From: Pseudolabrys sp.
GTDB lineage: Bacteria > Pseudomonadota > Alphaproteobacteria > Rhizobiales > Xanthobacteraceae
Direction of reading: 5' to 3'
DNA: 64,000 nucleotides
Assembly (NCBI GenBank): GCA_017849615.1
Contig: JAFIGS010000012.1
Span: 124,001 to 188,000 of the forward strand
The translations under genes and the position numbers were made by a program. Positions 13,953 to 31,760 of this stretch are shown here, one piece after another. Position 1 is the first letter of the stretch, and each line of letters starts with the position of its first letter. The notes under the pieces were generated by a model. That model was not told the DNA's origin, did not search any database, and was given only the letters and a program-made list of their open reading frames with translations.

Positions 13953-13977
13953 TGATCAGTCATCATATGACTCATCA
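13953..13977. promoter_or_regulatory. 25-base palindrome upstream of pckA
   Basis: The arms TGATCAGTCAT and ATGACTCATCA match at 10 of 11 positions around a three-base centre. The site lies 24 bases after the HugZ-like gene and 213 bases before the pckA start. It has no following T-run, so a dimeric repressor or activator site fits better than a terminator. pckA is under a LacI-type regulator (PckR) in Sinorhizobium; whether this site is related is not known. Confidence 0.4.
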
Positions 13978-14189
13978 AGCTTTGTGAAACCCGCGGGCGG
14001 CTCGCAGCGTTAAGTCATTGATGCAGTGCAATGCCGGCCCTTTCTAATGCATGGCATTTGATCTTGGCATTCACGGCGCTGATGACTATGGTCGCGCGCC
14101 TTAGCAAGGTCATCAGACGAAAGTCTTAAATGGAATTCGGCCACAGCGGCCGCGGCGGGTAATTGCCCTGTCGGATCGGGAGAGTAAGC

Positions 14190-15812: not shown

Positions 15813-15830
15813 GCGCGCGCTTGCAAAAGA

Positions 15831-15864
15831 TAAAAAGGGCGGCCTCATGGGCCGCCTTTTTTTT
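15831..15864 (+). terminator. Rho-independent terminator of pckA
   Basis: The stem GGCGGCC/GGCCGCC with a five-base loop is flanked by an A-run on the left and eight T residues on the right, 18 bases past the pckA stop. The A-run means it could also end the convergent small gene. Confidence 0.9.
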
Positions 15865-16117
15865 ATGCCGAGTGCGAGGGGCTGCCTTCGAGCGCGGCCT
15901 TGTAGACGGCGCGGCGATAGACATGCGTCGTGCGCTGCCAGCGAACCAGCGACATGGTTTGCGCCGATGCTTCGCGCAGGGCCTGGAGCGCTTCGTCGAG
16001 CGCGATGCGCGAGGCCTGATCCCGGGCGGCGAGGCCGGCGGCGCTTGCGACGCGGTCCATGAGAATATCGCGGCGCGCGCTATTCGGGGCGGCGGCGGGG
16101 CGGGCAGGGTCGGCCAT
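15863..16117 (-). CDS. Small hypothetical protein, 84 residues
   Basis: I do not recognise this family. The product is Ala- and Arg-rich, probably helical and soluble, with no signal peptide, membrane segment or Cys. GGAGAG lies eight bases before the ATG, and the gene ends exactly at the pckA terminator, which suggests it is real. A TTAA-N7-TTTA sequence about 50 bases upstream of the start resembles a CtrA box. Its only neighbours are convergent pckA and, upstream, the end of the LTXXQ-protein gene, so context gives no function. Confidence 0.6.
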   Translation of the reverse strand: MADPARPAAAPNSARRDILMDRVASAAGLAARDQASRIALDEALQALREASAQTMSLVRWQRTTHVYRRAVYKAALEGSPSHSA

Positions 16118-16165
16118 AAGGTGCTCTCCGAGCAGGATCGGAGAGCAACTGTGGGATCCTCATGG

Positions 16166-16180
16166 TTAATAAACTATTTA
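16166..16180. promoter_or_regulatory. CtrA-box-like sequence before the 84-residue gene
   Basis: TTAA-N7-TTTA differs by one base from the TTAA-N7-TTAA consensus of the alphaproteobacterial cell-cycle regulator CtrA. It lies 49 bases upstream of the small minus-strand gene, in an AT-rich stretch that could hold its promoter. The match is short enough to occur by chance. Confidence 0.25.
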
Positions 16181-16195
16181 TAACGCCGAGAGCCC

Positions 16196-16220
16196 AAGGG
16201 CGGCCTTGGCGGCCGCCCTT
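16196..16220 (-). terminator. Hairpin after the LTXXQ-protein gene
   Basis: Perfect ten-base arms AAGGGCGGCC/GGCCGCCCTT close a five-base loop, 13 bases past the stop of the minus-strand LTXXQ gene. There is only a short T-run, so it may act with Rho or merely protect the 3' end. Confidence 0.55.
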
Positions 16221-16232
16221 GTCCTTGCTGCG

Positions 16233-18056: not shown

Positions 18057-18185
18057 TATCACTCCGTCACGGACCAAAGGTTCCGGGTTCGCGATTCAAC
18101 GAATGAACCCGTTAATTCCCTTCGCTCGCGTGCGCCGATATCGCGAATGTGATCGGCGATGAACTCCTGTTCATAATCGCCATGT

Positions 18186-19031
18186 TTATGACGCGCCGTG
18201 TGTCCGCGGATAGGCGCTGCGCTGCGGCGAGCGCCAGCCGGCGAGGGCGCCTTCGGCGGGCGCGAAAATCTCGACCTTGAGCGGATAGCATTTCGCCACA
18301 TCGCTGGAATGCTCGGCGCCGCAATCGCCGCCGGGGCAGGCCGACAGCGCGCCGAGCAGATCGATCTCGGCGAAGAACTCGATGAAGTCGCCGGGCCGCA
18401 CCGGGCTCGCCTTCATGAAATACTGGTGCGTCTGCTTGGTGAAGCCGGTGCACATGAAGACATTGAGCACGTCGTGCACGTGCATCTCGGCGTCGCGCAC
18501 ATCCATGTTGCGCGCCGCCGCCAGCGCGCGCGTCAGGTTGGAATGGCAGCAGTGATGATAGTCGCCGCCGGACAGAAGCCGGTGGGTGTAGGGATCGCAG
18601 CGCGTGCCGATGACGTCATGAACGCCGCCGCCGTCGGCGTCGAAGCCGTACCAGCCGAGCGTGTCATGCGTGATGGTGGCGAGCGGCCGCAAATTCGGCA
18701 GCGTGCTCCAGAGCCGGTTGCCGGTGGTGACATGGGTGGCATGCAGCGCGCGCGTCTTGCCGCTGAAGAACCGCTCCGACAGATCCCGCGCATTCCATAA
18801 ATTGAGATCGCCCACCTGCGGGCCTTCGATCGAGACGATGCGGAAGAAGTGCCCGGCCGGCGCCTCGAAGGTTCGCGCGTCGCGCGGCGGCACGATGGTC
18901 TCCGACACCTTGCGCAACGTCTCGCGCGCCCGCCCCAGCATGGCCATGTCGGGCTGCGGCAGCGTCTCGACCGGATAGCAGACCACCGCGGGCCTGCCGC
19001 GGCGTTCGGCGGCGTCGGCGGGTTCGGTCAA
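18186..19031 (-). CDS. DUF1989 (urea carboxylase-associated) family protein
   Basis: The protein has 281 residues. The family's marks are visible: VPPRDARTFEAPAGHFFRI near residue 48, GDLNLWNARD, RDAEMHVHDVLNVFMCTGF and the C-terminal RPGDFIEFFAEIDLL with a Cys pair (CPGGDC). DUF1989 members accompany urea carboxylase and other amine-catabolic genes; some are thought to be amidases or amidinohydrolase-like, but the reaction is not established. It is the last gene of a probable operon after the alpha/beta hydrolase (11 bases) and the epimerase, so a role in degrading a nitrogen compound is likely. Confidence 0.8.
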   Translation of the reverse strand: MTEPADAAERRGRPAVVCYPVETLPQPDMAMLGRARETLRKVSETIVPPRDARTFEAPAGHFFRIVSIEGPQVGDLNLWNARDLSERFFSGKTRALHATHVTTGNRLWSTLPNLRPLATITHDTLGWYGFDADGGGVHDVIGTRCDPYTHRLLSGGDYHHCCHSNLTRALAAARNMDVRDAEMHVHDVLNVFMCTGFTKQTHQYFMKASPVRPGDFIEFFAEIDLLGALSACPGGDCGAEHSSDVAKCYPLKVEIFAPAEGALAGWRSPQRSAYPRTHGAS

Positions 19032-19042
19032 GCGGCTCTCCT

Positions 19043-20005
19043 CTATGCGTGCGATTCCACGAAGGCCGCGATGCCGGCAATGGCGTCGAGCGACTTCGGC
19101 AGCAGTTTGGGGCGCGACAGGAAGCCGTGCATCTGGCCGGGAAAGCGCGTCACCGTCACCGGCACGCCTTCGGCCTTCAGGCGCGCGGCATAGGCCTCGC
19201 CTTCATCGTAGAGCGGATCGAAGCCGGCGAGGATGATCAGCGCCGGCGGCAGGCCCTTGAGGCTCTGCGCGAAGAACGGCGAGCAGCGCCAGTCGCGGCG
19301 CTGGCCGACGTCCGGTACATATTTGTCGATGAAGTCGCGCATGCCGCCATTGTTCAGGGCGACGCCCTTCTCGAAGCGCTCGTCATATTCGAAGGTCAGA
19401 TCGACGATCGGATAAGTGAGAACCTGCGCGCGCAGCTTGATGTGGGCGTCGTCGCGCAGCGCCAGGGCAACGGTCGCGGCGAGATTGCCGCCGGCGCTGT
19501 CGCCGCCGACAAAGATGCGCTCGGGGTCGATCTTGAGCATCGCGGCATTGGCGAAAACCCAGCGCGTCGCGGCGACGGCGTCGTCGAAGGCGGCGGGAAA
19601 GACATGCTCGGGCGCGAGGCGATAATCGACGCTGACCACGGCGCAGTTGGCGGCGTTGGCGACGGCGCGGCAAACCCAGTCATGGCTGTCGAGATCGCCG
19701 ATCACCCAGCCGCCGCCGTGGAAATAGACCTGCACCGGCAATGCGTCGTCGGTGAGCGTCGCGTTGCCGCGATAGTAGCGAACCTGGAACGCGCCGCCTT
19801 TGCCCGGCACCGTGAATTCGCGCGTCATCGCCACATGCGGCAGGTCGGGCTGGTTGAACGGCCGCGCCCGGCGCATGCCTTCACGCGCCAGTTCCGGCGT
19901 CGGCGGGGTGGCCGGCGGCGGCGGCTGCAAGGTCATGTAGGCGCTGGACTCGGGGTCCATGTCGCCGAGCGAAGCGCGGAACGTGACGGTGGAAGCAACA
20001 CTCAT
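19043..20005 (-). CDS. Alpha/beta hydrolase, hormone-sensitive lipase family
   Basis: This serine hydrolase of about 320 residues is of the HSL/acetyl-esterase type. The oxyanion motif HGGGW (residues 93-97), the nucleophile elbow GDSAGGN, the catalytic Asp in AGFDPLYDEGE and the His in GQMHGF are all present, so it should be active. No signal peptide is apparent. AGGA lies eight bases before the chosen ATG. It sits between the epimerase (49 bases upstream) and the DUF1989 gene (11 bases downstream) on the same strand. It may hydrolyse an ester or lactone in the same catabolic path; the substrate is unknown. Confidence 0.88.
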   Translation of the reverse strand: MSVASTVTFRASLGDMDPESSAYMTLQPPPPATPPTPELAREGMRRARPFNQPDLPHVAMTREFTVPGKGGAFQVRYYRGNATLTDDALPVQVYFHGGGWVIGDLDSHDWVCRAVANAANCAVVSVDYRLAPEHVFPAAFDDAVAATRWVFANAAMLKIDPERIFVGGDSAGGNLAATVALALRDDAHIKLRAQVLTYPIVDLTFEYDERFEKGVALNNGGMRDFIDKYVPDVGQRRDWRCSPFFAQSLKGLPPALIILAGFDPLYDEGEAYAARLKAEGVPVTVTRFPGQMHGFLSRPKLLPKSLDAIAGIAAFVESHA

Positions 20006-20054
20006 AAGCAGATCCTGATTGACGGGGAAACGGCGCCGGGGTGGGACCGGTCGA

Positions 20055-21056
20055 TCAGCCCACCTGGAAGCCGTGGGCCAGCGGGTCGCGGTCATCGACG
20101 AAGATGGTGTTGTGGCCGATGACCTGGGCCCAGCCGGCGACGCTGGGGCGGATGGCGCGATGATTGCCGACGGTGGTTTCGGATTCGACGCGGCAATCGA
20201 ACATCGTGCCGATGATGCTCTCGTGGATGAACTCCTGGCCGGACTTTAGTTTCCCCTTGCCGGCGAGCTGCGCCATGCGCGCCGACGAACCGGTGCCGCA
20301 AGGGCTGCGGTCGATGGCCTTGTCGCCGTAGAACACGGCATTGCGCGCATGGGCGCGCGCGGCGCGCGGCCTGTCGGTCCATTGCACATGGGTGACGTCG
20401 CGGATGCGCGAATCCTCGGGATGCACCGGCGCGACCTTCTCCTGTGCCGCCTTGCGCACCAGCGGCGAGAGACGCTGGATTTCGGACACCGGCATGGTGT
20501 CGAGGCCGGGCCAGTTCTTCTGCGGCTCGATGATGGCGTAGTAATTGCCGCCATAGGCGACATCGAGCGTGATGGCGCCGAGTGTCGGCACCTCGATCTC
20601 GACATCGGTGGCGTGCAGATAGCTGGCGATGTTGTAGAGGCGCACCTGATCGACGAAGCGGCCGTTCTGCGTGTATTCGATGGCGACGCGGCCGGCCGGC
20701 GCCTCGATGGCGAGCTTGCCCGGCTCGCGCGGCGTCACGAGGCCTTCCTCGATGGCGACGGTGACGGTGCCGATGGTGCCGTGGCCGCACATCGGCAGGC
20801 AGCCCGACACTTCGATGTACAAGACGCCGACGTCGCAATCCTCGCGCGTCGAGGGATAAAGGATCGAGCCCGACATCACGTCATGGCCGCGCGGCTCGAA
20901 CATCAGCGCGCGGCGGACCCAGTCGTGATCGCGCAGGAAGATCTCGCGCTTGTCGAGCATCGGCACATGCGGCAGCAGCGGCCCGCCGCCGGCGACGACG
21001 CGCACCGGATTGCCGCAGGTATGCGCATCGATGCAGAAGAAGGTGTTGCGCGCCAT
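20055..21056 (-). CDS. Proline racemase family, probable 4-hydroxyproline 2-epimerase
   Basis: This cofactor-independent epimerase of 333 residues carries both catalytic Cys: Cys90 in CLPMCGHGTIG and Cys253 in DRSPCGTGSS. Two Cys fit proline racemase or 4-hydroxyproline 2-epimerase, whereas dehydratase members have Thr at the second site. Members of this type convert trans-4-hydroxy-L-proline to cis-4-hydroxy-D-proline for degradation. No D-amino-acid oxidase, deaminase or semialdehyde dehydrogenase of that pathway is in the window; instead a hydrolase and a DUF1989 gene follow. The substrate may therefore be a related imino acid. Confidence 0.85.
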   Translation of the reverse strand: MARNTFFCIDAHTCGNPVRVVAGGGPLLPHVPMLDKREIFLRDHDWVRRALMFEPRGHDVMSGSILYPSTREDCDVGVLYIEVSGCLPMCGHGTIGTVTVAIEEGLVTPREPGKLAIEAPAGRVAIEYTQNGRFVDQVRLYNIASYLHATDVEIEVPTLGAITLDVAYGGNYYAIIEPQKNWPGLDTMPVSEIQRLSPLVRKAAQEKVAPVHPEDSRIRDVTHVQWTDRPRAARAHARNAVFYGDKAIDRSPCGTGSSARMAQLAGKGKLKSGQEFIHESIIGTMFDCRVESETTVGNHRAIRPSVAGWAQVIGHNTIFVDDRDPLAHGFQVG

Positions 21057-21091
21057 GGGGAACTCCGCTGGTCGCGGCAGTTAAACACTCC

Positions 21092-21152
21092 GTTCATCCC
21101 GGCGAAAGCGGGAATCCAGAAGGTCTGGGCCCCCGCTTTCGCGGGGGCGACG
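21092..21152. repeat. Short ATCCCGGCGAAAGCGGG-type repeat
   Basis: TTCATCCCGGCGAAAGCGGG is followed by CCCCCGCTTTCGCGGGGGCGAC, giving two CGAAAGCG/CGCTTTCG inverted arms. It lies between the epimerase start and the transglycosylase stop. It may act as a processed 3' hairpin for the transglycosylase transcript. Confidence 0.6.
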
Positions 21153-21158
21153 GTGAGA

Positions 21159-22709
21159 TCAACAGCGCCGATATTCCCGGGCCTTTTCCGGCGACATGCG
21201 CAAGGTCAGGCAGCCCTGCACGGTCCAGACCCGCACGGTGACCCGGTCGCGCGACGCGGACGGCGGCGGCGCGGCGGCCGGCTCGTCAACCGGCTGCGCG
21301 GTGGCGGCGCGGTTCGGGCGCGGGCGCGGCGTTTCGATGGCAGGCTCGCTCGGCGCGGCGGTGACAGGCGCGCTTGAGACCGGCGCGGCGGTGACCGGCG
21401 GAGCGGGCTTAGGCGACGTTGCCGGACGTTCCGCAGCTTTGGTCTCGGTCCCGGGCTTGCGGGCGAGCGGCGCCACGGGCGCCGGATTTCGTTCGCTCTG
21501 CAGGCGCGCGATCAACTCCTCGGTCGGCCAGGCGTCGGCCGGCATGCCGTATTTGACCTGCATGGTCGCCACCGCCTTGCGCGTGCCGGCGCCGAGACGG
21601 CCATCGACCTCGCCGACGTCGAGCCCGCGCTTGGACAACTGGCGCTGCAATTCCATCATCTGCTCGGTGGTGATGGGCTTGATGTCGCGCGCGCCCGTCT
21701 CGTTGACCGGCGGCGCGCCGCCGAGGCGCGTGGCGAAATAGGCGACCGTGGTGGCGTAAACGAACGACGCGTTCCAGTCGGTGAAGACGTGGAAGTTCTG
21801 ATAGCCGAGAAACGCGGGGCCCTTGCGGCCCATCGGCAAGATCAGCGAGGCCGGCATGTTGTCACGCGGCAGCGCCGCGCCATGCGCGGACTTCACGCCC
21901 CACGCGACCCACTGCGAACGCGGATGCTGCGTATCGAGGTCGGCCTCATGCCAGGGCAACTCGTCCGGCACCGTGACTTCCTGCAGCCAGGGCTCGCCGC
22001 GGCGCCAGCCGATCGCGTGCAGATAGTTGGCGGCCGAGGCCAAAGTGTCGGGAATGCTGTTGACGAGATCGCGGTGGCCGTCGCCGTCGAAATCGACGCC
22101 GTATTTGATGTAATTCGACGGCGTGAACTGCATGCCGCCGAATTCGCCGGCCCAGTTGCCGGTCATCTGATCGACGGTCTTGTCGCCGCGCTGGATGATC
22201 CTGAGCGCGTCGATCAATTCCTCGCGAAATTTGTCGCCGCGCCGGCAGTCATAAGCGAGGGTGGTCAGCGCCGGAAGGATCTTGAACTTGCCGAACAGCG
22301 CGCCGTAATCGCTCTCGAGCCCCCACACCGCGGTGATGACCTCGGCCGGCACGCCGTATGTTTTCTCGATGCGATTGAACAGGGAGCGATGTTCCTGGAT
22401 CTTCGCCATGCCGTTCGGGATGCGCTTGCCCCCGAGCAGGCGGTTCGAGAACTGGATGAAGGTGAGCTGGAAGACGCCCTGGCCGGAATCGCGCCTGATC
22501 ACCGATTCATCGAAGACCATTTCGGGCGAAGCGGCGTTCAGCGTCTCGCGGTTGATGCCGTGGGCGAGGGCGTCCTTCTTGAAGTCGGCGAGCCATTTGC
22601 TGAAGTCGTGGGTGTTGACGCAGCGTGGCGCGGCCTGCGCCGTGCCGGTCATGCCGAAGCCCGCCAGGGCAAAGGTGGCCGCCAGAACCAGCGCCGCTCG
22701 CCGCATCAT
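21159..22709 (-). CDS. Lytic murein transglycosylase (MltB family) with peptidoglycan-binding domain
   Basis: This periplasmic enzyme of about 516 residues cleaves peptidoglycan with formation of anhydromuramic ends. A signal peptide covers residues 1-27 (core LVLAATFALAGF, ending AQA). The SLT_2 catalytic domain spans about 30-320, with the catalytic Glu132 in VWGLESDYGALFGKF and the EFGGMQFTPSNY segment. A PG_binding_1 domain follows at about 335-390 (LQRQLSKRGLDVGEVDGRLG). The tail is Pro/Ala-rich and ends with a short Cys-containing stretch. The MMRR start is chosen for the signal peptide; a start nine codons earlier is possible. Its job is wall turnover or insertion of envelope machines. 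Confidence 0.9.
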   Translation of the reverse strand: MMRRAALVLAATFALAGFGMTGTAQAAPRCVNTHDFSKWLADFKKDALAHGINRETLNAASPEMVFDESVIRRDSGQGVFQLTFIQFSNRLLGGKRIPNGMAKIQEHRSLFNRIEKTYGVPAEVITAVWGLESDYGALFGKFKILPALTTLAYDCRRGDKFREELIDALRIIQRGDKTVDQMTGNWAGEFGGMQFTPSNYIKYGVDFDGDGHRDLVNSIPDTLASAANYLHAIGWRRGEPWLQEVTVPDELPWHEADLDTQHPRSQWVAWGVKSAHGAALPRDNMPASLILPMGRKGPAFLGYQNFHVFTDWNASFVYATTVAYFATRLGGAPPVNETGARDIKPITTEQMMELQRQLSKRGLDVGEVDGRLGAGTRKAVATMQVKYGMPADAWPTEELIARLQSERNPAPVAPLARKPGTETKAAERPATSPKPAPPVTAAPVSSAPVTAAPSEPAIETPRPRPNRAATAQPVDEPAAAPPPSASRDRVTVRVWTVQGCLTLRMSPEKAREYRRC

Positions 22710-22843
22710 TGATTGTCCGCCGTTGTTGACCGTCATCAGCCCCGAATCTTCCCATATGGCGGCCAAGGTCAAGGCCGCTCGGGAAACGGCGTTAAGGGCG
22801 ATTCTTGGGCAAAAGATGGTGCCGGAAGGCCGGCGGGGCGCGG

Positions 22844-23602
22844 TTAACGCCGCAGCGCCGGGGCTTCGACGCGGGCGCTGAGTGCGGCGCGCGGGATCGA
22901 GGCCGTGACTTCGCCGGCCTGCGGCGCGGGCGAGGCGATGCGGGCGTCGCTCAGCTTCTCGCGCGTCGCGCGGGACAGACCATTGTAGTTCTGCACCGGC
23001 GTGAAGTTGGCGGCGACATTGCTGCGGTCGGCGCCGCGGCCGGTATAGGCAAGAAGGCCGGTCTCGGTGGCGACGATATCGCCCGGACGCAAGGTCGGGT
23101 CGGTGGTGGCGTCGATATGGGCGAGGCCGAAGGGCGTGCGGCCGTTGCAGGAACAGTTCGAGGCGATCTTCTTGCGATAGGCATAGGCGTTCGGCATGTC
23201 GCTGTAGCGGCTGCCGTCATTCGCCGTCGCGTAGTCGATATCGCTGCCCATGTAGAGCTTGGTCTGGGCCGCCGGACAGAACGACGAGCAGGCTTCCGCG
23301 GTGCTCATGCCGTTGCTCGACGACACGGGGAAGTAGTGGCCGTCGCAGGAGCGCACGCAGAATGCCTTGGACGGGCCGGTGTTCTCGGCGCGCACGCGGC
23401 TGTCGTCGCCGGCATTCAACTGCTCGAAAAAGCCGTTCGGCGCGGGCGGCGGCGCGGCGCCCTCGATGGCGCGGCTGATGCCGCCGAACAGACGATCGAA
23501 AAAACCCGCAGAGGCGGATTGCGGCATGGTCAAAACCGCGAGCACCAGCGCTCCGGCGCCGACAACCACCCGAAAAGCTTGCCTTTTACCGGCCCACGCC
23601 AT
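22844..23602 (-). CDS. DUF2865 family secreted protein
   Basis: This protein of 252 residues has a signal peptide (residues 1-32, ending SASA before GFFDRLFGG). The DUF2865 core at about 75-160 is recognisable: KAFCVRSCDGHYFPV, then a C-x-x-x-C pair (ACSSFCPAAQTK), NAYAYRKK and the CSCNGR motif, giving six conserved Cys probably in disulfides. The family is common in Hyphomicrobiales and uncharacterised. The C-terminal 60 residues are low complexity. It is upstream of the transglycosylase on the same strand, 134 bases away, so a cell-envelope role is plausible only by context. Confidence 0.85.
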   Translation of the reverse strand: MAWAGKRQAFRVVVGAGALVLAVLTMPQSASAGFFDRLFGGISRAIEGAAPPPAPNGFFEQLNAGDDSRVRAENTGPSKAFCVRSCDGHYFPVSSSNGMSTAEACSSFCPAAQTKLYMGSDIDYATANDGSRYSDMPNAYAYRKKIASNCSCNGRTPFGLAHIDATTDPTLRPGDIVATETGLLAYTGRGADRSNVAANFTPVQNYNGLSRATREKLSDARIASPAPQAGEVTASIPRAALSARVEAPALRR

Positions 23603-23858
23603 GACGACCCTGCCTTCGCCTCAATTCCAACGCCGCACCAACGCCTCATCATGGCGAAAGTTGCGCGGAACCGGGCCTCGAGCCGGCGGCACCATAGCGT
23701 CGGCATGGTAAAGGCGCGGTTAGTGGCGTCCCTGCCGCGCCGCGGCGGTAACCGGCGACGCTTCGAAGCGCCGTCGCGCGGTTACAGCAGCTTTATTTGA
23801 TATCCCGCTTGACGCCGTCCACTGTCGCGCCACATCGTGCGGTCTGCGGAGGTGGATG

Positions 23859-24224
23859 ATGGGTTTGTTCGATGCGCTCGGCGGCGTCGTCAAAGGCGTG
23901 CTGCAGCAGGAAGGCGGCCAGCTCGAAGGCGCGCTGCTGTCGCAGGTTCTCGCCAACACCAATCTCGGCGATCTCGGCGGCCTGGTGCAGAAGCTGCAAA
24001 GCGGCGGGCTGGCCGGTGAGGTGGCCTCGTGGCTCGGCAACGGCTCGAACATGCCGGTGACCGCGGAGCAGCTTCAGGCCGCGCTCGGCAACAGCCATGT
24101 TCAGGACATCGCGCGCTCGATGGGCATCCCGGTCGAGACGCTGATGCCGATGCTGGCGCAGCAACTGCCCGCGCTGATCGACAAGCTCAGCCCCAATGGC
24201 AGGCTGGCCGCACCGGCCGCCTGA
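23859..24224 (+). CDS. YidB-like (DUF937) protein
   Basis: This small Gly/Leu-rich protein of 121 residues contains QVLANTNLGDLGGLVQKLQS and the segment GLAGEVASWLGNGSNMPVTA, then LGNSHVQDIARSMGI, the conserved pattern of YidB/DUF937 proteins. The family's function is unknown. Of the two adjacent ATGs, the second is chosen because GGAGGT then lies five bases upstream. It has no signal peptide. A secreted-protein gene follows 31 bases later on the same strand. Confidence 0.85.
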   Translation: MGLFDALGGVVKGVLQQEGGQLEGALLSQVLANTNLGDLGGLVQKLQSGGLAGEVASWLGNGSNMPVTAEQLQAALGNSHVQDIARSMGIPVETLMPMLAQQLPALIDKLSPNGRLAAPAA

Positions 24225-24255
24225 TCCCAGGTTCTATCCAACGGAGGAAACCGGA

Positions 24256-24744
24256 ATGCTCAAATCGCTCAATCATGGCGTGGCGGCCGCTGTCGCGGCG
24301 CTGGTGGCGCTGGCCGTCTGGCCCGCGGCGCCGGCCTCGGCGCTGACGATGCAGGAATGCAGCGCCAAATACGAGGCCGCCAAGAAGGCGAATACGCTTG
24401 GCACCATGAAGTGGAACGACTTCCGCAAGGCGCAGTGCGGCGACACGGCGGCGGCGGCGCCGGCAACAACAACAACACCGCCGCCGCCCGCCCCCGCCAC
24501 GGCGGCGAAGCCTGCAGCGACGCCGCCCGCAGCCGCCAAGCCTGCGGCGCCAGCAACCGCCGCCGTCTTCCCCAAGGCGGTCGATCCGAAATACGCCAAG
24601 GAAAAAGCCGGCACCGCGCGCGAGAAAACCTGCGTCGATCAGTACAACGCCAACAAGGCGAACAACGCCAATGGCGGCATGAAGTGGACCGAAAAGGGCG
24701 GCGGCTACTGGAGCGCCTGCAACAAGGCGCTCAAGGGCGCCTGA
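24256..24744 (+). CDS. Secreted protein with duplicated Cys motif
   Basis: The product has 162 residues. Residues 1-30 are a signal peptide (AAAVAALVALAVWPAAPASA). Two related motifs of about 30 residues flank a Pro/Ala/Thr linker (residues 65-105): ECSAKYEAAKKANTLGTMKW ending in QC, and CVDQYNANKANNANGGMKW ending in AC. Each has two Cys spaced 24-35 residues apart, likely forming a disulfide. Similar proteins are frequent in Rhizobiales but I know no function. GGAGGAAACC precedes the ATG. A strong terminator follows the stop. Confidence 0.75.
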   Translation: MLKSLNHGVAAAVAALVALAVWPAAPASALTMQECSAKYEAAKKANTLGTMKWNDFRKAQCGDTAAAAPATTTTPPPPAPATAAKPAATPPAAAKPAAPATAAVFPKAVDPKYAKEKAGTAREKTCVDQYNANKANNANGGMKWTEKGGGYWSACNKALKGA

Positions 24745-24760
24745 ACCATTCGCTTCGATG

Positions 24761-24795
24761 AAAAGCCGCCGGGTTCGCGCCCGGCGGTTTTTTTA
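24761..24795 (+). terminator. Rho-independent terminator
   Basis: The stem GCCGCCGGG/CCCGGCGG with a loop of six bases and seven T residues begins 17 bases after the stop of the Cys-repeat secreted protein. An A-run on the other side may let it serve the convergent DUF6614-like gene as well. Confidence 0.9.
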
Positions 24796-24821
24796 TTGAG
24801 AAGGCGTGTGGAGGACCGGGC

Positions 24822-25172
24822 CTAGAATTTTTCGCTGCCGCGCTGCCGTTCGGCGTCGGGAAAATCGCGGTACAGCGCGAAGCGCGCATTCTGCGCCAGA
24901 GAATTGACGCCGAAGTGGAAGCCTTCGACCGGCTCGCCGCGTGACGCGACGTGGCCGAAGGCGCGGTCGAGCTGGGCGAGGTCGCGCACCTCCATCATCA
25001 GATGGAATTCGCCGAGCCCCTCGCCGCCGAGGCCGAGCTTGCGCCGCGTCAGCCGCCAGCTTTCGATCAGGTCCTGCGATTGCAGATAACCCAGGTATTT
25101 GGCAACGCCGTCGCTGAAATCGGTGTCGCGCACGCCCGGTTTCAGGTCGCACCACGCATGATAAATGTTCAT
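24822..25172 (-). CDS. DUF6614-like small protein, probable ferredoxin-fold dimer
   Basis: This protein of 116 residues begins MNIYHAWCDLKPGVRDTDF and has alternating strands and helices ending in FALYRDFPDAERQR. It resembles the small alpha+beta-barrel proteins grouped as DUF6614; I recall the family by appearance and give it low weight. No motif suggests an active site. It starts 13 bases after the LysE-type exporter stop on the same strand, so the two are probably co-transcribed. Confidence 0.65.
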   Translation of the reverse strand: MNIYHAWCDLKPGVRDTDFSDGVAKYLGYLQSQDLIESWRLTRRKLGLGGEGLGEFHLMMEVRDLAQLDRAFGHVASRGEPVEGFHFGVNSLAQNARFALYRDFPDAERQRGSEKF

Positions 25173-25185
25173 TACAGCCGTTACC

Positions 25186-25815
25186 CTATTTGCGGCCTTC
25201 CAGCGCCATGCGCACGGCGAGGCCGCCGAGCATGGTGCCCATGATCCAGCGCTGCGCCAAGAGCCACCTCGGTCGCGTCATCAGGAATGTCGCAATCGAG
25301 CCGGCGGCACAGGCGATCATCGAATTGATGACGATGCTGATGACGATGTGCGTGGAGCCGAGCACGAGCGATTGCAGCAGCACATTACGCTCGGGGTCGA
25401 TGAAATTCGGCAGCAGGGCGAGGTAGAAGATCGCCATCTTCGGATTGAGCAGGCTGGTCACCAGCCCGGCGAGGAACAGCCGGCGCGGGCCGACTGGCGG
25501 CAGGGTGCGCACCTGGAACGGCGACTTGCCGCCCGGCCGTAGCGCCTCGAAGGCGAGCCAGCCGATATAGGCGGCGCCGGCAAAGCGCAGCACGTCATAG
25601 GCATAAGGCACCGCGAAGACGATGGCGGTCAGGCCGAAGGCTGCACACAGCAGGAAGATGACGAAGCCGACGGCGACGCCGGAGAAGGCGATCAGCCCGG
25701 CGAGGCGGCCCTGCGTGATGGCGCGCGAGATCATGTAGATCATGTTCGGCCCCGGCGTCAGCACGACGGCGAAAGCGAGAGAGGCGAAGGCGAAAAGGGA
25801 AGTGGTGGTGGGCAT
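25186..25815 (-). CDS. LysE/RhtB family amino-acid exporter
   Basis: This inner-membrane exporter of 209 residues has six hydrophobic segments. The family signature is at the N-terminus: VVLTPGPNMIYMISRAITQGRLAG. A second signature, FLAGLVTSLLNPKMAIFYLALLP, lies near residue 115. LysE/RhtB proteins export amino acids or their derivatives by proton exchange; the substrate cannot be told. It lies after a dispersed repeat and before the DUF6614-like gene. Confidence 0.92.
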   Translation of the reverse strand: MPTTTSLFAFASLAFAVVLTPGPNMIYMISRAITQGRLAGLIAFSGVAVGFVIFLLCAAFGLTAIVFAVPYAYDVLRFAGAAYIGWLAFEALRPGGKSPFQVRTLPPVGPRRLFLAGLVTSLLNPKMAIFYLALLPNFIDPERNVLLQSLVLGSTHIVISIVINSMIACAAGSIATFLMTRPRWLLAQRWIMGTMLGGLAVRMALEGRK

Positions 25816-25851
25816 GGAATCCGTTCGGCTTGTCTCTTAGACTGTCTCCGG

Positions 25852-25955
25852 CCTCATCCTGAGGAGCCGCGCGCTACGCGCGGCGGCTCGAAGGATGGGT
25901 CGGCCTCATGGTTCGAGCCGCGCGGGCTGCGCCGCGTTCCTCACCATGAGGGTTG
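25852..25955. repeat. CCTCATCCTGAGG-type intergenic repeat
   Basis: CCTCATCCTGAGGAGCCGCG is followed by a CGCGCTACGCGCG hairpin, GAAGGATGGGTCGGCCTCATGG and CTCACCATGAGGGTTGG. It occupies the gap between the LysE gene and the polA stop. This type of sequence is a familiar dispersed repeat in Bradyrhizobium-like genomes; only one copy is in this window. Confidence 0.65.
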
Positions 25956-25957
25956 GA

Positions 25958-28900
25958 TCAATGCGCCTCGTCCCAGTTGTCGGCGGCGCGCGCTTCGACC
26001 TGCAATGGCACGTTCATGGCGATGGCCGGGTGCGGCGCGCTTTCCATGACGTCCTTGATGATCGGCAGCGTGTCGGCGACTTCCTTCTCGGGTACCTCGA
26101 AGATCAATTCGTCGTGCACCTGCAGCAGCATTTTCGCGTTGAGTTTTGCCAGCGCGAGTTCGCCCTCCATGCGCATCATGGCGCGACGGATGATGTCGGC
26201 GGCCGAGCCCTGCAGGCGCGCATTGATGGCGGCGCGCTCGTTGAAGGCGCGCAGCGACGGATTCGACGCTTTGATGTCCGGGTAATGGCACTTGCGGCCG
26301 AACAAAGTGAGCACATAGCCGTGCGTGCGGCAGTACTCGCGCGTTTCATCCATGTAGTCGCGGATGCCGGGGAAGCGCTCGAAATACTTCTTGATGTACT
26401 CGCCCGCTTCGCCGCGCTCGATGCCGAGCTGGTTGGCGAGGCCGAAAGCCGAGATGCCGTAAATAATGCCGAAGTTGATGGCCTTGGCGCGGCGGCGCAC
26501 TTCGCCCGGCATGTCCTTGACCGGCACGCCGAACATTTCGGACGCCGTCATGGCGTGAATGTCGATGCCGTCCTTGAATGCCTGCCGCAGCGTCGGCACG
26601 TCGGCGACCTCGGCGAGCAGGCGCAGTTCGATCTGCGAATAGTCGGCCGACACCAGCTTGTTGCCGGCCGCGGCGACGAAAGCCTTCCTGATTTTCCGGC
26701 CTTCCTCGGTGCGGATCGGGATGTTCTGCAAATTCGGCTCGGACGATGACAGGCGTCCGGTCGAGGTGGCGGCCAGCGAATATGACGTGTGCACGCGGCC
26801 GGTGTTCGGATTGACGTAGTTCGGCAGCGCCTCGGTATAGGTCGAGCGCAGCTTCGACACCTGACGCCAGTCGATGATGACCTTCGGCAGCTTATGGCCC
26901 TGCTCGGCGAGCTCCTCGAGCTCGCGCGCGGTGGTGGACCATTGTCCGGTCTTGGTCTTGGAGCCGCCGGGCAGGCCGAGCTGGCCGAACAGGATATCGC
27001 CAAGCTGCTTGGGCGAGCCGGGATTGACCGGCGTGCCGGCGATCTCGTTGATCTCCTCCTCGAGCGCGACCTGCCTCTTGCCGAAGTCGTTGGACAATTT
27101 CGCCAGCACGGCGCGGTCGATGGAAATGCCACGGCCTTCCATGCGGCCGAGCACCGCCGGCATCTGCCGCTCCAAAGTCTCGTAAACGGCGGTGACCTGT
27201 TCGGCGGCCATGCGCGGCTTAAGGCCGTGCCAGAGGCGCAGGATGATGTCGGCATCCTCGGCGGCGTAGGTCGCGGCGCGGCCGATCGGCGTCGCCTCCG
27301 CGGTGAACAGCGCCTTGTCCTTGTTCTTCACGTCATTGAAGCGCGACGGCATGCGGTCGAGATAGCGGCTGCCGAGCGCCGCCGTGTCGTGCCCGCCCTT
27401 GCCGGCGTCGAGCACGTAGGAGATCAGCATCACGTCGTCGGTGGCGCCGAGATCGATGCCGCGGGTGCTCAGCACCAGCCGGTCGCGCTTGATGTCGTGG
27501 CCGATCTTGGTGACGCAGTTGTCCTCGAGCAGCGGCTTGAGGATGGCGAGAGCTGTGTGCTCCTCGATCTGGCCGTCGCTGAGCTTGGCGGCGAACAGGC
27601 CGGACTGGTCGCCTTCGCTGGCGTCGCGGTGGCCGAGCGGCAGATAGTAGGCTTCGTTCGGCGCCACGGCGAATGCCAGGCCGCAAAGCGAGGTCTGCAA
27701 GGGATCGAGCGCGCTGGTCTCGGTCTTGATGGCGAGCGTGCCGGTGTCGAGAGCGCGCGCGATCAGCGCCTTGAGCGCATCGGCCGTATCGATGGCGCTG
27801 TATTTGCCCATGTCGAAGGGTGCGTTGCGCAGCCGCTCGAGACGGCGGGCGGCGAGGGAAATGGGGGTGAGCGCCGCGCCGGGCTCACTCCCTCCCCCGC
27901 TTGCGGGGGAGGGTTGGGGAGGGGGTGCAAATAGATCGCCGGTTCCCCCTCCCGCCGGCCTTTGGCCGGCGACCTCCCCCGCTTGCGGGGGAGGTGAAGA
28001 GAGTTTGGCATCCGCGCTGATCGCGCCCGCGTCGATGCCGGTCTTCTCGGCGATGCGGCGGGTGATGGTGGTGAACTCCATCGCCTTGAGGAAGGCGATG
28101 AGGTTCTTGTAGTCCGGCTCGTGCACGGCGAGGTCGGCGACGTCGGTGTCGAGCGGCACATTCCGGTCGAGCGTGACGAGGCGCTTGGAAACGCGCGCCT
28201 GCTCGGCGAACTGGATGATGTTCTCGCGGCGCTTCGCCTGCTTGATCTCGGACGCGCGCGCCAGCAGGGTTTCGAGATCGCCATAGGTGCCGATCAGTTC
28301 GGCGGCGGTCTTGGGCCCGATGCCGGGAACGCCGGGCACGTTGTCCGAGGTGTCGCCGATCAGCGCCTGCGCCTCGATCACCTTCTCCGGCGGCACGCCG
28401 AACTTCTCGATCACCTCGGCGCGGCCGATGCGCTTGTCCTTCATGGTGTCGTACATGACGACGGTGTCGCCGACGAGCTGCATCAGGTCCTTGTCGGAGG
28501 AGACGATGGTCGTCGTGGCGCCGGCCTCGCAGGCCAGCCGCGCATAGGTCGCGATGAGGTCGTCGGCCTCGTAGCCGGCCTGCTCGAGGCACGGGATTTC
28601 GAAGGCGCGCACGGCGTCGCGGATCAGCGGGAATTGCGGGCGCAGGTCTTCCGGCGCTTCCGGACGGTGCGCCTTGTAGTCGGGGTAGAAATCGGTGCGG
28701 AAGGTCTTCTCGGACTTGTCGAAAATGACGGCGAGATGAGTCGGCTTCTCCTCCGGCTTCATCTCTGCCAGCAGCTTCCACAGCATGTTGCAGAATCCGA
28801 GCACGGCATTTACCTGCAGGCCATCCGACTTGCGGGTCAGCGGCGGCAGCGCGTGGTAGGCGCGGAAAATGTAGCCCGAGCCGTCGACCAGGAAGACGTG

Positions 28901-29017
28901 ATCGCCCTTTTTCAGCGCGCGGCCGTCGGGGCTTGCCGGCGCGGCAGCGGCTGGAGCCGGAGCCTTTGACTTGGCGGCGGATTTCGGGGCGGCTTTGGAC
29001 GTTTTGGATGTTGGCAT
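25958..29017 (-). CDS. polA: DNA polymerase I
   Basis: This repair and Okazaki-fragment-processing polymerase has 1019 residues. The 5'-3' exonuclease domain spans about 38-335 (VDGSGYIFRAYHALPP, GDTSDNVPGVPGIGPKTA). A degenerate 3'-5' exonuclease domain spans about 400-620. The polymerase domain to the C-terminus shows motif A VSADYSQIELRLLAE, motif B RRRAKAINFGIIYG and motif C VHDELIFEV. Two oddities are visible. Residues about 339-377 are a Pro/Gly-rich linker encoded by a dispersed palindromic repeat read in frame. In the exonuclease domain the D-x-E metal motif reads I-K-T-E-T, with Lys431 where Escherichia coli has Asp355. The later Asp and the Tyr-Ala-Ala-Glu-Asp-Ala-Asp motif remain. 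Confidence 0.97.
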   Translation of the reverse strand: MPTSKTSKAAPKSAAKSKAPAPAAAAPASPDGRALKKGDHVFLVDGSGYIFRAYHALPPLTRKSDGLQVNAVLGFCNMLWKLLAEMKPEEKPTHLAVIFDKSEKTFRTDFYPDYKAHRPEAPEDLRPQFPLIRDAVRAFEIPCLEQAGYEADDLIATYARLACEAGATTTIVSSDKDLMQLVGDTVVMYDTMKDKRIGRAEVIEKFGVPPEKVIEAQALIGDTSDNVPGVPGIGPKTAAELIGTYGDLETLLARASEIKQAKRRENIIQFAEQARVSKRLVTLDRNVPLDTDVADLAVHEPDYKNLIAFLKAMEFTTITRRIAEKTGIDAGAISADAKLSSPPPQAGEVAGQRPAGGGTGDLFAPPPQPSPASGGGSEPGAALTPISLAARRLERLRNAPFDMGKYSAIDTADALKALIARALDTGTLAIKTETSALDPLQTSLCGLAFAVAPNEAYYLPLGHRDASEGDQSGLFAAKLSDGQIEEHTALAILKPLLEDNCVTKIGHDIKRDRLVLSTRGIDLGATDDVMLISYVLDAGKGGHDTAALGSRYLDRMPSRFNDVKNKDKALFTAEATPIGRAATYAAEDADIILRLWHGLKPRMAAEQVTAVYETLERQMPAVLGRMEGRGISIDRAVLAKLSNDFGKRQVALEEEINEIAGTPVNPGSPKQLGDILFGQLGLPGGSKTKTGQWSTTARELEELAEQGHKLPKVIIDWRQVSKLRSTYTEALPNYVNPNTGRVHTSYSLAATSTGRLSSSEPNLQNIPIRTEEGRKIRKAFVAAAGNKLVSADYSQIELRLLAEVADVPTLRQAFKDGIDIHAMTASEMFGVPVKDMPGEVRRRAKAINFGIIYGISAFGLANQLGIERGEAGEYIKKYFERFPGIRDYMDETREYCRTHGYVLTLFGRKCHYPDIKASNPSLRAFNERAAINARLQGSAADIIRRAMMRMEGELALAKLNAKMLLQVHDELIFEVPEKEVADTLPIIKDVMESAPHPAIAMNVPLQVEARAADNWDEAH
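27886..28002. repeat. Palindromic repeat inside the polA coding sequence
   Basis: About 117 bases hold two CTCCCCCGC-TT-GCGGGGGAG hairpins and a GCCGGCC-TTT-GGCCGGC hairpin, plus the GAGGGTTGGGGAGGGGGTGC and GGGGAGGTGAAGA motifs also seen in the spacers at 12159-12276 and 29094-29203. It stays in frame with polA and has no stop, giving peptides such as PPPQAGEVAGQRPAGGG between two nuclease domains. Confidence 0.85.
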
Positions 29018-29093
29018 GGCCCGAATGTGGGCCGGAGCGCGGGATGAATCAATGCGCCTGATCTGGCCTGTGGACTCGCGACGAACTCGGAGT

Positions 29094-29203
29094 GCTCCCT
29101 CTCCCCTTGGGGGAGAGGGTTGGGGTGAGGGGGCAAGTGCCTATCGGTAGTTTGTAACCCCTGCTTCGCAATCCGACCTCTCCCTGTGGGAGAGGTGAAG
29201 AAA
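29094..29203. repeat. C/G-rich dispersed repeat upstream of polA
   Basis: The element runs from GCTCCCTCTCCCC to GGGAGAGGTGAAGAAAG, closely matching the chvI-chvG copy in its ends, its GGGGTGAGGGGGCAAGTG stretch and its TTTGTAACCCCT/ATTGTAACCCCT centre. It fills the space between the acyltransferase stop and the polA start. Confidence 0.75.
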
Positions 29204-29205
29204 GA

Positions 29206-30264
29206 CTACTCCGCTGGCTGCATGGCCAGGCGCGGTTCGTGCTTTTTCTTGTCCGGAACCAGCCAGAACATGGCCGGTCGCTCGAACAGGAATTTCAGCG
29301 GCGTGAAGCGCACGGCCCAGAAGATCGCCAGCGCCCCGATCACGCCGGTGGCGGTGACCAGCGCCGAGATGGTGCCGATGTCGGTGACGATGCCGGTCTT
29401 GGTGAGGACGGTGCGGCTCGCCGCCATCGGCAGGAAGAAGGCGAGATAGATGACGATCGAGTTGCGGCCGCAATAGCGCAGCGGCTTGAACACATCGTGC
29501 TGCGCCAGCAGCGCCGAAACGGTGACGACCGCCACCGCGCCGATCAGGCCGAGCGTCAGCGAATAGAATGGCAGCGCCGCAACGCCGGCTTTCACCAGCA
29601 GGCCGTTGCCGATGCCCCAGATCACCAGGCCGGTCATGGCCAGCGCCGGGGCGGACTGCGCCCGCGCGGCGATAGCGAAGATGTACCGCGCGGCGATGTA
29701 GCCCGTATAGAAATAGACGAAGCGCGAGGCGAATTCGTCCGGCACCATCCAACCGGTCTGCACCTGCGAAATTTCCATCGCGGCGCCGATGAGCCAGATT
29801 ACCGGCCATGGCACGCGCTTCGTCAGCTTCACGACGATGAAGAAGATCGGCAGCAGGTAGATGAACCACAGAGTGCCGAAAGGTTCGACGAACGACATGA
29901 GGTAAGCGTGCGCCACGCCCATGACGCCCTGTTCGGCGATGAAGCCCGGCGCCTTGAAGGCGAATTGAATCGCGGTCCACAGCAGATAGAAATAGAAGAA
30001 GTGAACAACCTTGCGATCGATGTAGGTGCGCCAGTCGCGATCGATCACCTTGGCAAGGAACAGGCCCGAAATGAGGAAGAAGTCGGGCATGCGGAACGGC
30101 CGCGCGAATTCGACGACGTGGTGCAACCAGCCTTCCTTGCCGGTCACCGCTTCGACGCCGAGCGTCGAATGCATCATCACGACGAAGACGATGCAGAAGC
30201 CCTTGGCGTAATCGACCCAGTCGACCCGCCCATCGTGTATGCCGGTGTGCAATTCGTTCTGCAT
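29206..30264 (-). CDS. Acyltransferase family 3 membrane protein
   Basis: This polytopic membrane protein of about 352 residues has roughly ten helices. The N-terminus VDWVDYAKGFCIVFVVMMH has the R/D-x-x-D-x-x-K-G-x-x-I/M start and the putative catalytic His typical of acyltransferase_3 proteins, which O-acylate glycans, lipids or peptides. FRMPDFFLISGLFLAK is a second family motif. Its target is unknown, but the divergent neighbour makes UDP-glucuronate, so surface polysaccharide modification is plausible. The start with GGGACGGATAAA upstream is chosen; one six codons earlier is possible. Confidence 0.85.
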   Translation of the reverse strand: MQNELHTGIHDGRVDWVDYAKGFCIVFVVMMHSTLGVEAVTGKEGWLHHVVEFARPFRMPDFFLISGLFLAKVIDRDWRTYIDRKVVHFFYFYLLWTAIQFAFKAPGFIAEQGVMGVAHAYLMSFVEPFGTLWFIYLLPIFFIVVKLTKRVPWPVIWLIGAAMEISQVQTGWMVPDEFASRFVYFYTGYIAARYIFAIAARAQSAPALAMTGLVIWGIGNGLLVKAGVAALPFYSLTLGLIGAVAVVTVSALLAQHDVFKPLRYCGRNSIVIYLAFFLPMAASRTVLTKTGIVTDIGTISALVTATGVIGALAIFWAVRFTPLKFLFERPAMFWLVPDKKKHEPRLAMQPAE

Positions 30265-30446
30265 TTTATCCGTCCCGTTCATGATGACATTGTGACGGGC
30301 CAAGGTTTCACTCCCCTTTACGCGCCTGAATAAAATGGGGCCGGTTTGAGGCAACTCGCAATCGCGAAACGGCTCTGCTAGACCGCCGCCGGTGGCCCCG
30401 ATATCATTTGATTAACCAACGGCGGCCGGATGGGTGTGGTTAAGAT

Positions 30447-31760
30447 ATGCGCGTTGCGATGATCGGTTCAGGTTATGTGGGTCTCGTGTCGGGAGCCTGC
30501 TTCGCGGACTTCGGCCACGAAGTGATATGCGTCGACAAGGACAAGTCGAAGATCGACGCGCTCAACGGCGGCCATGTGCCGATCTACGAGCCGGGACTGA
30601 CCGAACTGGTGGCAACCAACGTCAAGGCCGGGCGGCTCAAATTTACCATGGACCTCGCCGCCGCGGTCAAAAAGACCGACGCGGTGTTCATCGCCGTGGG
30701 CACGCCGTCGCGCCGCGGCGACGGTCACGCCGATTTAACATTCGTTTACGATGCCGCGAAGGAGATTGCCGCCGCGGTCGATGGCTTCACCGTCGTCGTC
30801 ACCAAGTCCACCGTGCCGGTCGGCACGGGCGATGAGGTCGAGCGTATCATCCGCGAAGCGCGGCCCGACGCGTCCGTTGCGGTGGTGTCGAACCCTGAGT
30901 TTCTGCGCGAAGGCGCGGCCATCAAGGACTTCAAGCATCCCGACCGCATCGTGGTCGGCACCGACGACGAGCGCGCGCGGGCGGTGATGTCGGGGCTGTA
31001 TCGGCCGCTCTATCTGAACCGCTCGCCGGTGATGTTCACCGGGCGGCGCACCGCGGAGCTGATCAAATACGCGGCCAATGCGTTCCTCGCCACCAAGATC
31101 ACCTTCATCAACGAGATCGCCGATCTCGCCGAGAAGGCGGGCGCCGACGTGCAGGAGATCGCGCGCGGCATCGGCCTCGACAACCGCATCGGCGGCAAGT
31201 TCCTGCATGCCGGCCCCGGCTATGGCGGATCGTGTTTCCCCAAGGACACGCTGGCGCTGCTCAAGACCGGACAGGATCACGACACGCCGCTGCGCATCAT
31301 CGAGGCGGTGGTGGCGGTGAACGACAACCGCAAGCGCGCGATGGCGCGCAAGGTCTCGCACGCGCTGAACGGCGATATCCGCGGCAAGACCATCGCCGTG
31401 CTCGGCCTGACCTTCAAGCCGAACACCGATGACATGCGCGAGGCGCCGTCGATCCCGCTGATCGCGGCCCTCCAGGACATGGGCGCGCAGGTGCGGGCCT
31501 ACGATCCGGTCGGTATGGAGCAGTCGCGCGCCTATCTCAAGAACGTGGCCTTCTGCAACGACGCGTACGATTGCGCGCAAGGCGCCTCGGCGCTGGTGAT
31601 CGTCACCGAGTGGGAGCAGTTCCGCGCGCTCGACTTCGCGCGTCTCAAGGACGCGATGGTCAAGCCGGTGCTGGTCGATCTGCGCAACATCTACCAGCCC
31701 GACGAACTCGCCCGCCACGGCTTCGCCTATGAAGGCGTCGGCCGCGGTTCAGCAGGATGA
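30447..31760 (+). CDS. ugd: UDP-glucose 6-dehydrogenase
   Basis: This cytoplasmic NAD-dependent enzyme oxidises UDP-glucose to UDP-glucuronate for exopolysaccharide, capsule or lipid A sugars. Its 437 residues start with the Rossmann motif MIGSGYVGLVSGACFADFGH. The substrate segment VGTPSRRGDGHADLTFV, KYAANAFLATKITFINEIAD and the catalytic Cys263 in GPGYGGSCFPKDTLAL are intact, and the C-terminal domain LGLTFKPNTDDMREAPS follows. Its last 12 bases overlap the convergent TadE-like gene. It is divergent from the acyltransferase. Confidence 0.95.
   Translation: MRVAMIGSGYVGLVSGACFADFGHEVICVDKDKSKIDALNGGHVPIYEPGLTELVATNVKAGRLKFTMDLAAAVKKTDAVFIAVGTPSRRGDGHADLTFVYDAAKEIAAAVDGFTVVVTKSTVPVGTGDEVERIIREARPDASVAVVSNPEFLREGAAIKDFKHPDRIVVGTDDERARAVMSGLYRPLYLNRSPVMFTGRRTAELIKYAANAFLATKITFINEIADLAEKAGADVQEIARGIGLDNRIGGKFLHAGPGYGGSCFPKDTLALLKTGQDHDTPLRIIEAVVAVNDNRKRAMARKVSHALNGDIRGKTIAVLGLTFKPNTDDMREAPSIPLIAALQDMGAQVRAYDPVGMEQSRAYLKNVAFCNDAYDCAQGASALVIVTEWEQFRALDFARLKDAMVKPVLVDLRNIYQPDELARHGFAYEGVGRGSAG

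Follow-up and report, generated by a model that had tools for sequence, protein, structure and literature searches.

Dispersed palindromic repeats that are read in frame within protein-coding genes have been described in several bacteria, and here the closest of these systems are compared with an element inside polA, the DNA polymerase I gene, on a 64,000-nucleotide stretch of a Pseudolabrys sp. genome (assembly GCA_017849615.1, contig JAFIGS010000012.1, positions 124,001 to 188,000; hereafter the window, with coordinates counted from its first letter). GTAG/CGTC repetitive extragenic palindromic sequences (REPs) are defined by a 20-40 bp palindrome with a GTAG or CGTC tag at one end, and the CGTC type by an 8-9 bp stem with AT first, a 4-5 base loop, a CCA tail and a CGTC/TGTC tag (PMC3733652). 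The 2013 survey that treats them reports REPs within open reading frames (ORFs) of several bacteria, many in genes of DNA synthesis and repair, with DNA polymerase I, UvrD, excinuclease subunits, DnaE2, DNA ligase and TruB as targets, and weighs flexible linkers and mutator effects for such in-gene copies; genes of the same category carry REPs at differing sites, except recB of two Xanthomonas species (PMC3733652). Rickettsia palindromic elements are also dispersed, about 150 bp long, and lie in frame in unrelated genes (Ogata 2000 and 2002, as cited in PMC10969869 and PMC3733652).

In the Pseudolabrys genome, a repeat here called family A (the names A, B and C were coined in this analysis) occupies the hinge between the two nuclease domains of DNA polymerase I. 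The family-A copy probably entered polA as a mobile repeat and was kept because the hinge is predicted to be disordered. The features of the locus, and the two other copies considered in the window, are as follows.

25958-29017, minus strand: polA, DNA polymerase I, 1019 residues plus stop (ORF and Pfam matches).
27884-28009, minus strand: interdomain hinge from 5' nuclease to 3'-5' exonuclease, 42 codons between alignment anchors (PolA alignment).
27887-28006, minus strand: family-A palindromic element, in frame, about residues 339-377 (profile match, blastn, alignment and consensus structure).
27890-27913, no strand: hairpin CCCTCCCCCGCttGCGGGGGAGGG, that is CCCTCCCCCGC-tt-GCGGGGGAGGG, one end of the element (sequence, alignment).
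27916-27953, no strand: central stem GGGGAGGGGG / CCCCCTCCC with its loop (sequence; consensus pairs 66-74/110-118).
27954-27970, no strand: hairpin GCCGGCctttgGCCGGC, that is GCCGGC-ctttg-GCCGGC (sequence).
27972-27995, no strand: hairpin ACCTCCCCCGCttGCGGGGGAGGT, that is ACCTCCCCCGC-tt-GCGGGGGAGGT, the other end of the element (sequence, alignment).
29088-29211, no strand: family-A copy in the interval from the polA start (29017) to the next ORF (29206-30354), which it overlaps by a few bases (blastn, sequence, ORFs).
12153-12285, no strand: family-A copy of the CTCTCCC subtype (blastn, sequence).

Pfam matches place the 5'-3' exonuclease at residues 41-303, the 3'-5' exonuclease at 406-603 and the polymerase at 637-1017, and the polA ORF stays open across the entire element, which codes for the Pro/Gly-rich stretch. 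Three perfect hairpins and the central stem are read directly from the sequence, and the hinge scores 83.3 bits against a profile built from family-A copies outside polA. The same profile gave no match in 680 codon-shuffled and 680 base-shuffled linkers, and none in 337 segments of 150 bases from 20 polA genes outside the hinge overlap; among all 357 segments, matches were confined to those that begin at 900 and reach into the start of the hinge (segments starting at 951-1249 had been excluded beforehand). An AlphaFold model of PolA (30-row alignment; moderate overall confidence, mean 74.2, pTM 0.58) has pLDDT below 50 and no secondary structure at residues 340-380, and the hinge is predicted on this model to be disordered. 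A preliminary description of the window had proposed a dispersed palindromic repeat at 27886-28002 that leaves the polA frame open; hairpins, frame, composition and site are as it placed them, and the element is slightly wider. The copies that it noted near 12159 and 29094 do belong to family A by blastn. No protein family was matched by the ORF that crosses the former.

When the polA copy and the 12153-12285 copy were used as blastn queries, at least 25 and at least 30 matches, respectively, were found in the genome at E <= 1e-3, and merging the two gave at least 40 distinct sites, whole and partial copies together, 6 of which lie inside identified genes. Alignment of 24 copies (window copy included) yielded one consensus structure, in which the ends pair with each other and each also forms a hairpin with itself, accompanied by a small variable hairpin and a long stem whose loop varies in sequence; 11 of the 32 pairs were changed on both sides with pairing retained. 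The small hairpin (27954-27970 in polA) is the most variable part among copies and keeps its pairing, with two-sided changes in 5 of its 7 consensus pairs. An Rfam scan of window positions 11900-30500 returned only matches below the gathering score. Open frames are no commoner in families A and B than in dinucleotide shuffles (2.66 vs 2.74 of 6 for A), and the idea that the element is specially suited for read-through was rejected for A and B on this ground; family C has fewer open frames than its shuffles (1.54 vs 2.14 of 6).

To place this copy among relatives, we compared polA hinges in 43 genomes of the genus group (labelled G, with loci labelled L; G000 is the genome of the window). Among named loci, the closest PolA sequences are from Pseudolabrys, the hinge of G041 is identical to that of Pseudolabrys sp. 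Root1462, and the genus of the group was taken as Pseudolabrys. Profiles were again built from copies outside polA, trimmed by 12 bases per end (48, 16 and 24 input sequences for A, B and C ahead of length filtering, with duplicates among the A loci), with a threshold of 20 bits. Repeats of three families were found in the hinge of 19 of the 43 genomes. Family A occurs in eight (G000, G012, G002, G006, G013 and G052, with the right half only in G055 and G051), family B in five (G004, G020, G021, G043, G048) and family C in four (G005, G022, G053, G054), while two (G042, G044) carry what was called, by eye on overlapping profile matches, a chimera of B on the left and A on the right. The hinge of G017 resembles a decayed B by eye; it had no profile match and was counted as none. 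The element in G000 is not a lone case. Nor do all relatives share a linker of one length and composition, which the preliminary description had named as a ground for refuting its claim; sister species already differ in composition.

Hinges with a repeat are 38-61 residues long (mean 48.9, n=15 complete) and those without are 24-46 (mean 36.6, n=22), a difference with a Mann-Whitney p of 2e-6 when species are treated as independent, though they are related. Since the mean gain of about 12 residues is smaller than the 38-40 residues coded by an element, native residues would have been lost; the earlier estimate of about 39 added residues holds for what the element codes and fails as a simple gain. 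Among 73 other named PolA loci (L098-L170), whose membership of the genus was not established one by one, seven reached 20 bits (L098, L100, L103, L104, L105, L124, L136), Rhodoplanes piscinae and Rhodopseudomonas infernalis being among the carriers. One of them, L136, matches family A at 43.7 bits on the opposite strand vs 7.0 on the usual strand.

Family B has a build like that of A, exceeding 100 nt with several stems, and begins TATCCCTCCCC and finishes GGGGAGGGATA; family C consists of two hairpins with the consensus TTGTCATGGCCGGGCTTGACCCGGCCATCCA. By the published definitions C is a CGTC REP, with a 9-bp stem from AT, a 5-base loop and a CCA tail, whereas A and B fall outside the GTAG/CGTC REPs in their length, their several stems and their ends (TTCACCTCC / GGGAGGG in A, TTATCCCTCC / GGGATAA in B). 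The Pseudolabrys repeats share with GTAG/CGTC REPs the in-frame dispersed palindromes, the repair-gene targets and the consideration of linker tolerance, and differ in that three families occur in one polA hinge within one genus (PMC3733652). The words 'Pseudolabrys' and 'polA' are absent from the main text of that paper, and a literature search, largely of abstracts and with few subscription journals, did not find family A, family B or a multi-repeat polA hinge. The in-gene phenomenon is nevertheless already known, repeats in DNA polymerase I and repair genes having been reported in 2013 (PMC3733652), and the bias towards repair genes seen here is an independent repetition of that finding, in a different bacterial family and with different repeats. 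The parallel that the preliminary description drew with the Rickettsia palindromic elements is apt for in-frame palindromic inserts in protein genes (here PolA, UvrC, UvrD, DEXH helicase, DnaE2, DNA ligase and PDH E2); the host order is another one, and the likeness is one of description. Br-REP1 and Br-REP2 of Bradyrhizobium are related Hyphomicrobiales palindromes, with three stem-loops at the Br-REP1 discovery locus, but their printed consensus resembles none of A, B and C by eye, and they are described from intergenic regions and 3'-UTRs (PMC5082802). Miniature inverted-repeat transposable elements (MITEs) are similar in being short, in lacking a gene of their own and in their inverted ends (PMC3733652, PMC10969869). 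Their terminal inverted repeats measure 15-30 bp (PMC3733652), whereas in the consensus structures the ends of A can pair, those of B can do so over 11 pairs, short of that range, and each end is a palindrome in itself; a further difference is that neither a clear target duplication nor a parent insertion sequence was found, PF01797 being the only transposase family searched. PF01797, the family of REP-associated tyrosine transposases (RAYTs), had no match in G000 and was above the cut-off in 4 of the 43 genomes, and RAYT mobilisation was rejected for want of a match in G000.

Hinge contents are scattered over the genus. A quick PolA tree that omits the hinge (42 genomes, G001 excluded) requires at least 18 changes for five hinge states: A alone requires 7, B plus chimeras 6, C 4, and repeat vs none 11. 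On a tree of 20 labelled rows, 11 changes were counted vs a shuffled mean of 11.7, and 81 of 200 shuffles were equally low; G017 was labelled B on this tree and none on that of 42 genomes. The excluded G001 bin holds two polA genes (L045, L084), one of which falls outside the genus on the tree, and is likely contaminated. Sister species differ in the hinge (G053 with C and G017 with none by profile; G005 with C and G021 with B; G054 with C and G058 with none), and in G022 and G054 the C copy is preceded by 13 bases equal, by eye, to the left end of B, which suggests nesting. Because sisters differ, a B remnant precedes C and B/A chimeras occur, repeats seem to have arrived more than once at this one site, and the PolA hinge has likely been invaded repeatedly in the genus.

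Identity of the hinge was also compared with that of eight flank windows in 20 chosen pairs. In four of five close pairs with different contents, the hinge was less alike than every flank window (G053-G017, 67% vs 83-96; G005-G021, 60% vs 80-88; G054-G058, 69% vs 78-92; G000-G004, 76% vs 79-93); in the fifth, G000-G010, it lay inside the flank range. Conversely, 4 of 12 same-family pairs were more alike in the hinge than in every flank window (G000-G012, 91% vs 64-80; G004-G043, 90% vs 54-81; G021-G020 and G000-G002 also). On these sequence comparisons the hinge has a history separate from that of its flanks for A and part of B; the figures do not show so for C.

A short motif recurs in the hinge. 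The pattern [DN]LF or QL[ADPS][LF] is present in 27 of 37 complete genus hinges vs 0.17 expected from shuffled hinges, and in 27 of the 73 other named loci vs 0.35 expected, figures that are flattered by the choice of the pattern after viewing the hinges. None of the four C hinges has it, nor do three of the B hinges. In A and some B copies it lies in the loop of the element; in G000 the central-stem loop at 27926-27944 encodes TGDLFA. The DLF/QLxL motif resembles the beta-clamp consensus QLSLF given in PMC4549789, where clamp binding by DNA polymerase I is cited, and could be a short motif with a function. Either it is native and was flanked by repeat arms that arrived separately, or it may have been regained after insertion.

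Repeats also lie within other genes. In G000, ORFs of at least 120 codons were sought through all 40 sites; 3 sites had none, and at each of the remaining 37 a search of NCBIfam, Pfam or both was made with the one or two longest. Five identified genes contain six of the sites: PolA, UvrC, UvrD, a ligase-associated DNA damage response DEXH helicase and PDH E2. UvrD has one site in the helicase core and a second in its C-terminal part, beyond the family match; G042 also has a repeat at this second place, and the sequence matches to either side of it. The G000 UvrD (L288) has, between two of its helicase motifs, a long insert that resembles a row of several different repeats, part of it non-A.

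Relatives provide empty sites for insertions in DnaE2 and UvrC. The DnaE2 segment, compared in nine genomes (that of G013 stops at a contig end), measures 115 residues in G002 and 125 in G012 and G054, vs exactly 73 in G058, G057, G052, G018 and G008. The UvrC segment, compared in 17 genomes, measures 110 residues in G000 and 119 in G010, vs 78 in G004, G040, G045 and G041; it is 73 in G014, G012, G058 and G054, and 81 with a short remnant in G046. Interior elements of at least 20 bits were found in 9 of 30 DnaE2 loci (21 elements, four of them in G023) and 6 of 30 UvrC loci, counts in which carriers are possibly favoured, as the queries carried inserts and the best 30 of 35 and 41 matching genomes were taken; 11 UvrC genomes beyond the best 30 had no match across the insert, and one G010 DnaE2 element was missed by the ORF rule of this count. 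Both strands of the palindrome score alike, and the orientation of UvrC copies was not used. PDH E2 has an interior element in 4 of 31 loci, that of G000 included, so repair function is not required for insertion. None of 30 loci of IF-2, the linker-rich control, has an element, a zero that would not be predicted from linker tolerance by itself, given the long N-terminal part of IF-2. IF-2 is essential and repair genes are mostly non-essential; dispensability could lie behind the difference. Of the DnaE2 genes, that of G023 (L328, 1330 codons) holds in-frame A copies at 865-1001, 2286-2413, 3295-3436 and 3620-3776, and that of G054 (L199/L340) has two nearly identical repeat-coded inserts, which suggests recent copying, with a third element further along.

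Taken as a process, the repeats would move by a transposition-like step and most insertions into genes would be purged, the survivors being those located in a hinge or loop that leave the frame intact; native residues would be lost, with hinge length held within limits, and the DLF motif may have survived, or been regained, in the loop of the element. Direct support comes from the similarity within the family, the open frame, the differing hinges of relatives, the three families at one site and the clean empty sites in UvrC and DnaE2. Several observations weigh against mobile entry into polA as proposed. Contigs end at the polA hinge in 5 of the 43 genomes (G002, G006, G013, G017, G052; pieces L072-L081), whose hinges are partly unseen, and many of the genus genomes are metagenome bins. 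A search limited to PF01797 linked neither A nor B to a transposase, and no clear target-site duplication was seen at the DnaE2 and UvrC empty sites. The UvrC segment of G008 (106 residues) is long without a profile match, as is that of G009 (87 residues), and length alone is thus no proof of a repeat. A DLF within the loop is not what would result if a complete element had been inserted next to a native motif. Finally, in 8 of the 12 same-family pairs, all four C pairs included, the hinge lies within the flank range, as descent predicts; among the matches listed, polA B copies are 84-88% identical to the G048 copy and other long copies at most 80%, and polA C copies are 80-81% identical to the G054 copy and others at most 79% over 92-96 bases.

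Because, among the long copies listed, polA B and C copies are closest to one another across species, common descent accounts for some of the polA repeats, and not every one is a new arrival. This, with the C pairs just mentioned and the hinge of G017 that resembles a decayed B by eye, is what would be expected if polA had received few ancient entries and the patchwork had arisen by interspecies recombination and decay instead of repeated insertion. Types of repeat-free hinge are also mixed on the tree, and repeat-free G046 (L060) behaves as a recombination break would give: its hinge is 77% identical to G041 vs 63% to its sister G040, its left flank 88-93% to G041 vs 75-89% to G040, and its right flank 80-87% to G040 vs 63-81% to G041, a possible break at the hinge. 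Such a history is a serious contender, though we lean somewhat against it: several arrivals are needed anyway by the family differences between sisters, the B remnant before C and the B/A chimeras, and the A copies of distant G000 and G012 are far more alike in the hinge than outside it. Misjoining of contigs at repeats is very improbable. The five polA genes split at the hinge, and the poly-C/poly-G junk at some contig ends within it, are of the kind that misassembly would leave; in G000, however, polA continues to either side of the hinge within one uninterrupted frame, a B copy is present in G004, which consists of a single contig, and the 16 database proteins that match hinge residues 336-384 all have polymerase I family domains (among the matches listed), with the repeat peptide in all five that were read, one of them 96% identical to the PolA of G000. 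That an ordinary GC-rich Pro/Gly linker should resemble the repeat by chance is hardly conceivable. The shuffle result for family A means that an open frame alone proves nothing, but 83.3 bits vs no match in 1360 shuffled linkers and 337 polA segments, the perfect stems and the different families in relatives speak against coincidence, and the chance linker was ruled out by the profile scores.

Selection on the repair genes themselves has also to be considered. Repeats there might be favoured for lowering or altering repair, a mutator route that PMC3733652 raises as speculation, and four of the five identified G000 genes with an interior A copy are repair genes (PolA, UvrC, UvrD and the DEXH helicase, the fifth being PDH E2), with DnaE2 adding its 21 interior elements in 9 of 30 loci. 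We regard this route as unlikely: open frames and family domains around the elements do not indicate loss of function as far as sequence can tell, the dispensability of repair genes could yield an equal bias, and PDH E2 carries copies too. A broader proposal, which is speculative and rather doubtful at present, is that the hinge is a reusable landing pad that several unrelated repeat families invade and where they nest in and replace one another, and that the same repeats load other repair genes (UvrC, UvrD, DnaE2 with up to four copies, the ligase-associated helicase) owing to repair itself, beyond linker tolerance; altered hairpin repair, for example, might feed back to favour spread of the element. 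The genus offers a natural experiment on the question left open by the 2013 survey, namely why in-gene palindromic repeats concentrate in repair genes, as it contains close species with and without an insert at one and the same position of PolA, UvrC and DnaE2 in which repair effect, route and turnover are measurable. The PolA inserts come from different repeat families in different frames, and they suggest a route by which a core replication enzyme gains sequence, predicted to be disordered, from non-coding repeats. The repeat also seems to break assemblies inside polA, a warning that such repeats can interrupt metagenome assemblies within core genes.

The remaining sites are less clearly placed. 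In G000, those in TruB, QueG, an SDR, a methyltransferase-like ORF and DUF559 (two sites) are ambiguous, the element lying before or after the family match or at an unclear start, and in ThiC it lies past the family match. TruB was rejected as an in-frame insertion, since the element precedes the family match and may be 5' to the true start. At the remaining G000 sites no family was matched, which is weaker than showing them to be intergenic. Outside G000, where only ORFs of at least 150 codons with at least 40 codons on each side of the element were scanned, none of 26 family C loci could be assigned to an identified gene; one C copy, which precedes YsxC (L194), was counted as ambiguous. Family B outside polA was in identified genes at 2 of 20 loci, a cisplatin-response DNA ligase (G011) and the C-terminal part of UvrD (G054, where the element scores as A). 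Family A matched 34 of the 43 genomes, and the best-match locus was taken from each of 29 other genomes. Three of these were polA, favoured by the query, and 6 of the other 26 were in or at identified genes, all repair genes: DnaE2 (G002, G054), the DEXH helicase (G048, G008), the C-terminal part of UvrD (G042) and the 5' region of PdeM (G017), where the element precedes the family match. It also precedes the match in a YfbR-like ORF (L195; Pfam match, no NCBIfam model). The DEXH helicases of G000, G048 and G008 (L018, L175, L198) have repeats at the same place that differ, by eye, in sequence or frame, and in several genomes family-A copies lie near infB on the same contigs, or before truB (L002, L085, L087, L089).

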